Positions 16,757-56,782 of a stretch of DNA of 64,000 bases are shown one piece after another (position 1 is the first letter of the stretch; the number at the start of each line of letters is the position of its first letter). Below the pieces are notes generated by a model. The model did not search any database, was not told the DNA's origin, and saw only the letters and a list, made by a program, of their open reading frames with translations. The position numbers and the translations under genes were made by a program. The stretch is from Shouchella clausii (GTDB lineage Bacteria; Bacillota; Bacilli; Bacillales; Bacillaceae_D), in assembly GCF_002250115.1 (NCBI RefSeq), contig NZ_CP019985.1, forward strand, positions 4,216,001 to 4,280,000, written 5' to 3'.

Positions 16757-16780
16757 AAAGAAGCCTCGCAGGGCTTCTTT
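16757..16780 (+). terminator. First copy of the duplicated terminator hairpin (element copy A, left)
   Basis: AAAGAAGCC and GGCTTCTTT form a 9-bp stem with loop TCGCAG. The same 24-bp hairpin, with one base changed, occurs again at 16935-16958 on the other side of the 154-bp element. Confidence 0.85.
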
Positions 16781-16934
16781 GAGGTTGTCGACAAAGTCGA
16801 TAACTGCACTCAGACTGATAGAAAACGCTTGTCAGACGAGAAGTGCAGGCGAGGGAAGATGCGAATAGAACAGGCGTTCATGAGCATATGACCGAGAAAA
16901 ACGACGACGTATGCGAGCGTTTTTCTACAGTCTG
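16781..16934 (+). mobile_element. Terminator-targeting MITE-like element, copy A (154 bp)
   Basis: Begins GAGGTTGTCGACAAAG and ends CTACAGTCTG. Read inward, the right end is CAGACTGTAGAAAAAC, an imperfect inverted repeat of the left end. The element has no open frame of note. It is exactly as long as copy B (56603-56756) and about 90% identical by eye. It is inserted between two copies of a 24-bp terminator hairpin that differ by one base, so the hairpin looks like a target duplication. The ends resemble those of the IS1182-type element at 28418-30257. The rest of the 16687-17001 gap holds only a GCCAGC/GCTGGC inverted repeat at 16714-16728. Confidence 0.8.
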
Positions 16935-16960
16935 AAAGAAGCCTCACAGGGCTTCTTTTT
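16935..16960 (+). terminator. Second copy of the duplicated terminator hairpin (element copy A, right)
   Basis: Same stem as at 16757-16780 with loop TCACAG, followed by a longer T run, so this copy is probably the original, efficient terminator of the small genes upstream. Confidence 0.88.
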
Positions 16961-28344: not shown

Positions 28345-30081
28345 TTATTCAGATTGATAGAAAACGCTTGTCAGCTTCAGATGAACTACAAAGGATGCGA
28401 GCGTTTGCCAAAAGACAGGGGTTGTCCCAAAAGCCTTTAAAATGAAGAAGGGGAGTCGAGATTTGAGTTGATCTCGACTCCCCTTTTTTTGATGGGTCGT
28501 TGTTTTGAGTGAATAATGGCAGGCCTTGCCCGCCATTTTCCTCAGATTGAGGGCCAATCCCAGCCAACCAAGCTCCACCGTCACCTTCTCCAACCCGCGA
28601 AGATGGAATCGTCGAAACCCGAGATTTTGTTTGGCATGCCCAAATACACTCTCGACGTCCGTTTTTCTTTGCGCGTAGAGTGTGGCTCCCCTTTCACTAT
28701 GCAGTTTGGCCGCTTCTTTGGCTTTGAGTTCCTCGTAGACGGGGTTGTAATGGATTTGGCGATTCCCCTTGGCCTTCGTACAGTCCGCTTTGAACGGACA
28801 CCCCTCACAGGACTCGCATTCGTAAATCTTAAAGTCGCGCTTGAATCCATAGCGATCGGTACGGCGGCGATAGGCTTTAAAGGCGACCTTCCGGTTGTTT
28901 GGGCACCAATAGACATCCTCGTGTTCGTCATACCACCAGTTATACGGATGGTAGGTCTGCTTTGGGAATGATCGTTTTTGCTCTTGGCGATAGGTGATGT
29001 AGGGAATGAGCGATGTGACCGTTTCTTGCTCTTCCATGTAAAGATAATTGCTTTCACTTCCGTAGCCTGCATCGGCAATGAACCAGTTTGGCAGAGGCAG
29101 ACCTGTCGCTTTAAGGTGCTCATAATGCGGGATCAAACAACGGATATCGGTTGGGTGTTGGTGAACCGTGTAGTGAAGAATGAATTGGTTTTGCGTCGCC
29201 ACTTGCCAGTTATACCCTGCCTTGAGTTGCCCATTGTTCATGTGATCGTCTTTCATCCGCATGAACGTGGCATCTGGGTCGGTTTTAGAAAAGCTGTTGC
29301 GCTCGCCAAAGAGACCCATCTGTTCTTCGTATTTTTCCAAACGAGGAAGATGGTCTTTCGTTAAGCTTCGATAGGCCTTTCGTAGTGGCTTGCTCGCTTC
29401 TTTGTGGGCCCGTTTTTCTTCTTTGGATGGGGCTTCTGCGATGGCTTGGTCCAGCGCATCCAGTTCCTTTTCCACCTTTGTGACGACGTCTTGAAGACGT
29501 TTGCGGCTGATTCGTTGCCGTTCAAACGTGGCGTCCTCCTGCTTTAAGGTTTCGGTATCCAACGTAATCGCTTCTTGAATGGCCTCTAACGTTTTATCGA
29601 TTTTCATTTGAAGCTTCTCTTCGTGGGAAAGCGTGCTCTTTTTCCAAACGAACGAGTATTTATTGGCGTTCGCTTCGATTTTGGTGCCATCGAGAAAATA
29701 GGCCTCCATGTCGACATAGCCTTCTTCGATCAGAAGATGCGTCATTTCGGTATACAGGCCTTCCATCAACGATTGGAAACGTTCTGAGCGAAAGCGATTG
29801 ATCGTCCGAAAGTTTGGGGCTTGTCCAGCAGCGAGCCACATCATCGGCAGGTTTTCTTTGAGGGCTTGTCCCATGGCTCGGCACGAGAACCAACGTTGCG
29901 TATACGCATATAGGACAATCTTTGTCATCATTTTCGGATGATAGGCAGGTCTGCCCCCACCTTCATACGCACGAACAAAGAAATCGTCATCCAACCCATC
30001 CACCACGTCACTGACCACACGCGCGACATGATGTTCGGGGATAAGATCGGAAAAATCCATAGGCAGATAGAGTTGATTCAT
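28345..30081 (-). CDS. IS1182 family transposase, reading past the IS end
   Basis: A DDE transposase: the N-terminal DUF772 part (LIPEHHVARVVSDVVDGLDDD ... GRPAYHPKMMTKIVLYAY ... FRTINRFRSE) and the catalytic DGTKIEANANKYSF segment, a long helical insertion, ADAGYGSESNYLY with the second aspartate, and RKTDVESVFGHAKQNLGFRRFHLRG with the final glutamate. Catalytic motifs look complete. There is no stop inside the IS: the frame crosses the left inverted repeat and ends at 28345 in flanking DNA, adding about 24 foreign residues. I start it at ATG 30081, just after the protective hairpin; ATG 30162 would add 27 residues but lies inside that hairpin. Confidence 0.88.
   Translation of the reverse strand: MNQLYLPMDFSDLIPEHHVARVVSDVVDGLDDDFFVRAYEGGGRPAYHPKMMTKIVLYAYTQRWFSCRAMGQALKENLPMMWLAAGQAPNFRTINRFRSERFQSLMEGLYTEMTHLLIEEGYVDMEAYFLDGTKIEANANKYSFVWKKSTLSHEEKLQMKIDKTLEAIQEAITLDTETLKQEDATFERQRISRKRLQDVVTKVEKELDALDQAIAEAPSKEEKRAHKEASKPLRKAYRSLTKDHLPRLEKYEEQMGLFGERNSFSKTDPDATFMRMKDDHMNNGQLKAGYNWQVATQNQFILHYTVHQHPTDIRCLIPHYEHLKATGLPLPNWFIADAGYGSESNYLYMEEQETVTSLIPYITYRQEQKRSFPKQTYHPYNWWYDEHEDVYWCPNNRKVAFKAYRRRTDRYGFKRDFKIYECESCEGCPFKADCTKAKGNRQIHYNPVYEELKAKEAAKLHSERGATLYAQRKTDVESVFGHAKQNLGFRRFHLRGLEKVTVELGWLGLALNLRKMAGKACHYSLKTTTHQKKGSRDQLKSRLPFFILKAFGTTPVFWQTLASFVVHLKLTSVFYQSE
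28346..28409 (+). repeat. Truncated copy of the dispersed element beside the IS
   Basis: Contains TTCAGATTGATAGAAAACGCTTGTCAG and then GGATGCGAGCGTTTG, the two inner end regions of the 154-bp element, with the middle deleted. It lies between htpX and the left end of the IS1182-type element. Confidence 0.65.
28450..28490. terminator. Hairpin inside the left end of the IS
   Basis: GGGGAGTCGAGAT pairs with ATCTCGACTCCCC (13 bp) around an 8-base loop, followed by seven T on the plus strand. It would stop transcription coming from htpX and lies in the transposase C-terminal codons on the other strand. Confidence 0.85.
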
Positions 30082-30115
30082 GGTATACTCTTGGAAAGTG
30101 ACCTTTGGGTTACGC

Positions 30116-30186
30116 AAAAAAATCGCCTGCTTTCGTTTGAATTTTGGTAGTGGTACCTTCATTTTAAACGATGAGGCGATTTTTTT
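30116..30186. promoter_or_regulatory. Inverted repeat upstream of the transposase start
   Basis: AAAAAAATCGCCT at 30116-30128 is repeated perfectly inverted at 30174-30186 (13 bp). In transcripts entering from outside it would fold and block or end transcription, a known protective feature of IS elements; transcripts from an inner promoter would escape. Confidence 0.55.
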
Positions 30187-30274
30187 GTGCTTTTTTATCC
30201 AAATGTAAAAAAGCCACCCCAAAAGGTCATTTATCTATGACCTTTTGGGACAGCTCCTTTTGCTAAGCGATTAG

Positions 30275-56549: not shown

Positions 56550-56577
56550 TCCTTTAGCAGATAATAGCTAAAAATTG

Positions 56578-56602
56578 AGGCGCCCTCTACAAGAAGGCGC
56601 CT
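56578..56602 (+). terminator. First copy of the duplicated terminator hairpin (element copy B, left)
   Basis: AGGCGCC and GGCGCCT form a 7-bp stem with an 11-base loop. The same 25-bp (27 bp with two shared flanking bases) sequence recurs exactly at 56757-56781. Confidence 0.85.
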
Positions 56603-56756
56603 GAGGTTGTCGACAAAGTCGACAAAATCATTCAGACTGATAGAAAACGTTTGTCAGACGAGGAGTGCAGCCGAGGGAAGATGCGAATAGAACGGGGGTT
56701 CATGAGCATATGACCGAGGCAAACGACGAAGTATGCGAGCGTTTGTCTACAGTCTG
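56603..56756 (+). mobile_element. Terminator-targeting MITE-like element, copy B (154 bp)
   Basis: Begins GAGGTTGTCGACAAAG and ends CTACAGTCTG; read inward the right end is CAGACTGTAGACAAAC, matching the left end at 11 of 16 positions. Same length as copy A and about 90% identical by eye, in the same orientation relative to the upstream gene. It lies between two exact copies of the beta-helix gene's terminator hairpin. A second, internal TCAGACTGATAGAAAACG (56633) resembles the inverted right end, so the element may fold into a long hairpin. No coding sequence. Confidence 0.82.
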
Positions 56757-56782
56757 AGGCGCCCTCTACAAGAAGGCGCCTC
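56757..56782. terminator. Second copy of the duplicated terminator hairpin (element copy B, right)
   Basis: Exact repeat of the left hairpin; here the stem extends one pair further (GAGGCGCC/GGCGCCTC). It lies between the beta-helix gene and the convergent dinB gene. Confidence 0.85.

Follow-up and report, generated by a model that had tools for sequence, protein, structure and literature searches.

The window examined here, a stretch of 64,000 nucleotides (64 kb) of the Shouchella clausii genome, contains two copies of a MITE, each lying between two copies of a terminator hairpin. Copy B occupies positions 56603..56756 on the + strand, is exactly 154 bp long and runs from GAGGTTGTCGAC to GTCTACAGTCTG, its ends forming imperfect inverted repeats. 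A small hairpin is found at its left end (56607..56625, + strand; TTGTCGAC-AAA-GTCGACAA), followed by a foldback core (56633..56756, + strand), a long imperfect hairpin that begins with a second end-like repeat, CAGACTG, and reaches the right end. The small hairpin is also seen with the loop TTT in place of AAA (L020, L023, L034). On either side of copy B stand identical 25-nt hairpins, to which no strand is assigned (left, 56578..56602, AGGCGCC...GGCGCCT; right, 56757..56781), and sequence and repeat analysis confirm the arrangement described in the initial annotation, a 154-bp copy between two identical hairpins. Of the hairpin length of 25-27 nt given there, the value of 25 stands and that of 27 does not, since the 27-nt repeat reported by the repeat tool (56576-56602 and 56755-56781) consists of the hairpin plus two bases common to the element end and the flank. 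The limits of the MITE were set from copies with a flank unlike the element end, with GAGGTTG as the start and CAGTCTG as the end. Copy A (16781..16934, + strand) is likewise 154 bp long and is 91% identical to copy B. Its 24-nt flanking hairpins (left, 16757..16780; right, 16935..16958; no strand assigned) are unrelated in sequence to those of copy B and identical to each other at 23 of 24 positions, and the right one is followed by a T-tract.

The suggestion that two cases in 64 kb indicate a family was borne out by 43 blastn matches to the MITE in the same genome, which is complete at 4.52 Mb. With up to 3 mismatches allowed, the left-end motif matched 47 times and the right-end motif 94 times, with no matches for the reversed controls, and flanks were retrieved for 88 of the 94 right-end sites. 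Both ends are present in 35 copies, 23 of them exactly 154 bp long, and a 191-bp variant (L034, L038) carries an extra internal segment of approximately 37 bp. Among the fetched loci, 38 of 51 distinct sites with a right end only have a strong hairpin that begins no further than 1 nt from that end and, as judged by eye, a terminator often precedes the copies with a left end only as well; such single-end sites look like decayed insertions. Of 13 genomes from the genus, 6 carry the MITE (G005 weakly), with 31-46 matches in each of four relatives (G006, G008, G010 and G011), and it is absent from all 28 further genomes searched of the same taxonomic family. The + strand of copy B (56603-56756) folds at -60.2 kcal/mol (z -6.9 against shuffles) and the - strand more weakly (-39.5 kcal/mol, z -3.3); the + strand folds better than the - strand in 43/43 distinct copies, and compensatory change is seen at 8 of 41 predicted pairs of the whole MITE (20 copies). 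No claim of a functional RNA is made, because a foldback element folds in any case and the copies are related. A search of the 64-kb window for known RNA families gave no Rfam match at gathering scores.

Related genomes preserve both sites without a complete element. At the site of copy A, G006 has a single hairpin and no element, and G010 and G011 have a remnant of the element (its right 36-45 bp) with a single hairpin; at locus L150 the copy A hairpin is single. At the site of copy B, G006, G010 and G011 (L135-L137) each have a single hairpin and no element. The spacer downstream of copy B differs too, with some tens of bases present in the relatives missing from the genome studied here (G000). 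The loop of the copy B hairpin (56578-56602) is inverted in G010 and G011 (L136, L137) relative to G000 and G006. The idea that the copies arose by segmental duplication, or that the element struck a pre-existing tandem pair of hairpins, is next to impossible to reconcile with these data: the hairpins differ from site to site, relatives have one hairpin at both sites, and in the Anaerovorax set described below duplication and hairpin agree foot to foot in 35 of 35 cases. Nothing in its support was found, and segmental duplication, which the initial annotation had named as a refutation of its reading, is ruled out by the site-specific hairpins and by the single hairpin at empty sites.

Duplications flank 32 of the 35 two-ended MITE copies and are 15-30 nt long; none is present at the other three (L025, L034, L076). 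The duplication starts at the element end in 25 of the 32 and is free of mismatches in 18, and its first base is A in 26. It ends within 1 nt of the foot of the hairpin in 28 of 32 copies, and in 10,000 permutations of the set the agreement with the hairpin foot had a mean of 0.40 and a highest value of 0.69. Duplication and hairpin length correlate with a Pearson coefficient of 0.21 and a Spearman coefficient of 0.66, the low Pearson value being due to a different hairpin called at one decayed copy, L078, without which it is 0.80. At 30 of the 35 copies a strong hairpin begins no more than 1 nt from the right end; among 8000 positions drawn at random from the first 900 nt of the retrieved loci, 57 had one. 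The hairpin at the element end is confirmed as real and not a product of chance.

One scan of a genome collection yielded 62 related loci, of which 40 from Anaerovorax sp. IOR16 (L177-L216) were used as an independent set and provide the cleanest test of a duplication length set by the hairpin. A full IS copy is present at 36 of these loci and a partial one at four. All but one of the full copies (35/36; none at L195) are flanked by a duplication of 17-34 nt, which, at a hairpin limit of 45 nt, ends exactly at the hairpin end in 33 of 35 and is 1 nt longer in two (r = 0.998); the corresponding permutations gave a mean of 0.28 and a highest value of 0.54. At a limit of 60 nt, 32 of 35 were equal and 34 of 35 within 1 nt, with r = 0.55, a drop that arises because L215 is then called with a longer hairpin. 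The duplications begin with AA, AC or AG in 24 of 35. The relation between duplication and hairpin length, which the initial annotation had proposed to plot, is thus near one-to-one, within 1 nt in 28 of 32 MITE copies and in 35/35 Anaerovorax IS copies (45-nt limit). Length follows the hairpin in both sets, which rules out a duplication of fixed length, and the view that the shared property is the hairpin structure is supported by lengths that match hairpins, by sequences that differ from site to site and by single hairpins at empty sites. Comparison of the copies shows duplication of the whole hairpin, foot to foot, with a length that follows that of the hairpin.

A further 27 loci comprised five IS copies from the S. 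clausii genome itself, two Anaerovorax loci with identical flanks (L170 and L171) and 20 from other records. A hairpin duplication was found in 14 of them, including loci of Halalkalibacter urbisdiaboli, Fictibacillus phosphorivorans and an Oscillospiraceae MAG; there was none in five (L104, L166, L168, L220, L221), and eight were without an end pair. Four of the H. urbisdiaboli forms (L169, L172, L175, L176) are only 1215-1433 bp long, compared with 1537 bp for the S. clausii IS, and each has its own hairpin duplication; these short forms look mobile. Among the copies examined, L184, L178, L211 and L213 of Anaerovorax and L173 of Fictibacillus encode the transposase in two overlapping frames, with the break at a run of A; this organisation could reflect programmed frameshifting.

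A candidate for the enzyme that moves the MITE is encoded in the same genome. Nine matches to Pfam DDE_Tnp_1_6 were found there, five of which (L103-L107) belong to one IS of 1537 bp. The family models were run on the transposase of L105, to which, or to one another, the remaining four copies (L103, L104, L106, L107) are 94-99% identical in DNA sequence. It matched the NCBIfam IS1182 model (NF033551) with 483 bits against a cut-off of 270 and contains the Pfam domains DDE_Tnp_1_6, DUF772 and DDE_Tnp_1. The IS1634 family was rejected at 18.7 bits against a cut-off of 100, and a phmmer search for a solved structure gave no match at E 0.01. Terminal inverted repeats are present at both ends of the IS (CAGCCTGTCGACAAA and CAGACCGTAGACAAA or CAGAGCGTAGACAAA). 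By blastn, MITE positions 6-18 match IS positions 6-18 and MITE positions 137-154 match IS positions 1519-1537, so that both termini are in register; taken singly these matches are weak (E 0.006 and 0.02), and the kinship of MITE and IS rests on their shared register. The interior of the MITE is not common to the IS, the remaining matches being both weaker and out of register. Four of the five IS copies (L103, L105, L106, L107) have a duplicated hairpin of 21-28 nt on either side, L104 has none, and MITE and IS share the same kind of target and of target duplication. The 1537-bp IS1182-family IS is therefore the likely mover of the MITE, as far as the terminal sequences and targets indicate. 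At E 1e-100, no full copy of the IS was found in any of the remaining 12 genomes from the genus and, at 1e-10, two of the five MITE-bearing relatives each gave one partial match with stops; in the absence of a full IS from G006, G008, G010 and G011, the mover there would have been lost or be a different one. In all five copies (L103-L107) the transposase frame lacks a stop within the IS and extends 8-170 nt into the flank. In the four copies with duplicated hairpins the stop is reached only after the hairpin and T-tract, and an mRNA ended at the terminator would consequently be non-stop. In Halalkalibacter (L169, L172, L175, L176, L219) and in L167 the frame likewise overruns the end of the IS; in Anaerovorax and Fictibacillus it stops within the IS.

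The initial annotation regarded the family as specialising in Rho-independent terminators, which fits the tracts beside the targets: at least four T among the 8 nt on the right side, or at least four A among the 8 nt on the left, are present at 29 of 32 MITE targets and at 35 of 35 Anaerovorax targets, where AT-rich flanks make this criterion easy to satisfy. That nearly all targets are terminator-like could be taken to mean that insertion is guided by RNA polymerase in the act of terminating, or by the hairpin of the nascent RNA, in place of a DNA structure. We regard such guidance as very improbable, given that three of the 32 MITE targets have neither T- nor A-tract and that the Anaerovorax targets have no T-tract polarity: 13 have the stronger T-tract on the 3' side of the transposase, 12 the stronger A-tract on the opposite side, and ten are ties. 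MITE targets lean to the right (T-tract on the right in 16 versus six, with ten ties), and a crude and noisy count of gene orientation, based on open-stretch ORFs, gave 9 sense, 6 antisense, 11 convergent and 3 neither, without significant bias. Polarity with transcription thus has no significant support in any of the three counts. The lack of polarity in Anaerovorax is expected if a symmetric structure is read, and we read this as recognition of the palindrome, not of transcription.

In strand transfer by DDE enzymes, the 3' ends of the element are joined to 5' phosphates of the target, as set out in the pertinent passages of PMC5678879. Doubling of a whole hairpin then implies that the join on either strand falls at the 5' foot. 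The MITE is quite probably a non-autonomous derivative of an IS1182-family IS, inserted by the transposase of that family at palindromes with duplication of the whole hairpin. The transposase of the full IS would act on the shared ends, and the element would enter palindromes, which are nearly always terminator hairpins. A cruciform would be extruded at the palindrome, and its two opposed hairpins would be attacked by the 3' ends of the element, each at its 5' foot; these two feet would adjoin at the four-way junction whatever the length of the arms. Unfolding and repair would then leave one full hairpin on each side of the element. At a bidirectional terminator the right copy would keep the T-tract for rightward transcription and the left copy the A-tract for leftward transcription, and termination would be spared. 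A cruciform is favoured because the feet are 17-34 bp apart, a variable distance, in linear DNA, but meet at the cruciform junction. The same element and transposase might instead use a hairpin on single-stranded DNA, for example on the lagging strand at a replication fork, as the target. This would likewise tie duplication length to hairpin length, and four target hairpins are stable when folded as single DNA strands, but a two-ended DDE insertion needs joins on both strands, and we judge a single-stranded target to be unlikely, if worth keeping in mind. It is also conceivable, if distinctly unlikely, that a transposase dimer recognises the palindrome in duplex form, as a symmetric sequence whose spacing may vary, and that no hairpin is extruded. 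The symmetry of the targets accords with such reading, as does the existence of IS1182 members tabled with 4-bp direct repeats in the sources cited below, but the half-sites have little in common beyond a frequent A/T end pair, and the spacing ranges from 17 to 34 nt.

A second IS1182-family element in the window, which is not part of the MITE, offers a contrast to the duplicating IS. It lies at 28417..30257 on the - strand, the limits of this 1841-bp IS being set by identity to a second identical copy and possibly off by a few bases. Its transposase matches the NCBIfam IS1182 model with 460 bits and is 30% identical to that of the duplicating IS over the best aligned 187 residues. At this site a terminator hairpin is kept by three relatives (L229, L230 and, with a single mismatch, L231); in the present genome its central part is missing, and no duplication accompanies the IS. 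The element thus resembles the duplicating IS in family and in having hit a terminator hairpin, and differs in that the middle of the hairpin was removed and not duplicated. Both outcomes, duplication and replacement, occur in one genome, the replacing case being a single site. A decayed MITE remnant lies directly upstream of this IS (about 28350-28409), and the ORF of the IS also extends past the IS end. On balance we lean towards a branch of the IS1182 family in which the DDE transposase acts as a four-way-junction enzyme and yields a duplication set by shape, with sister branches joining elsewhere on the structure and deleting the target.

Stem-loop targets are known from this family in staphylococci. 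The passages of PMC4923244 and PMC5678879 that deal with IS1272 and TnSha1 describe stem-loops of varied sequence and size as targets, with five of seven TnSha1 sites being terminators by RNA-seq. Furi et al. (2016) report terminator hairpins that are partly deleted (PMC4923244), and Wan et al. (2017) draw duplication of the whole stem-loop as a possible pathway b for IS1272, the observed mode in the passages concerned being replacement without duplication (PMC5678879). The elements described here are like IS1272 and TnSha1 in their IS1182-family transposase and stem-loop targets, and unlike IS1272 as portrayed in those passages in that the stem-loop is kept and doubled, not replaced or partly deleted; replacement of the IS1272 type, with loss of the stem-loop and no duplication, does not describe the MITE, which has a duplication in 32/35 copies. 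ISPse1 and ISCaa15 belong to the same family by the classification of their papers and are tabled with 4 bp (PMC3281130, where the figure comes without its column heading, and PMC3196728). The pneumococcal repeats BOX, RUP and SPRITE resemble the MITE as short intergenic MITE-like repeats, but SPRITE itself resembles a terminator, and the passages of PMC3049150 concerned describe no duplication of a target hairpin. In the open-licence literature searched, no report of this MITE was found, and none of whole-hairpin target duplication save the hypothetical branch in the relevant part of PMC5678879. The claim that the phenomenon had not been described thus holds in part: as far as searched, the MITE is unreported and whole-hairpin duplication set by shape is in print only as a hypothesis, but structure targeting is not new for the IS1182 family. 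Group IIC introns, the EFAR repeats of Enterococcus faecalis and IS1634/IS1549 also insert at terminators or make long variable duplications. To our knowledge, group IIC introns are retroelements without target duplication; a group II intron was rejected, as the Rfam search of the window at gathering scores gave no match. ISfinder gives variable repeat lengths for IS1182, and instances of such duplication may consequently be listed there.

As a rule, the target duplications of DDE transposons are of near-fixed length, as the transposase spaces its two cuts. In the members of the Bacilli and Clostridia studied here, the fold of the target sets the length, which ranges from 17 to 34 nt. Duplication set by shape offers a clean readout of structure-guided strand transfer, an open point since the proposal of stem-loop replacement by IS1272, and suggests how an element can occupy terminators without destroying them. 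If the proposed branch within IS1182 is true, one family gives duplication, replacement and ordinary short duplication by shifting the point of strand transfer. With duplication and replacement found in one window for one transposase family, the switch between them can be sought by comparing two related enzymes, and a duplication length set by the target makes the insertion of DNA guided by shape testable.
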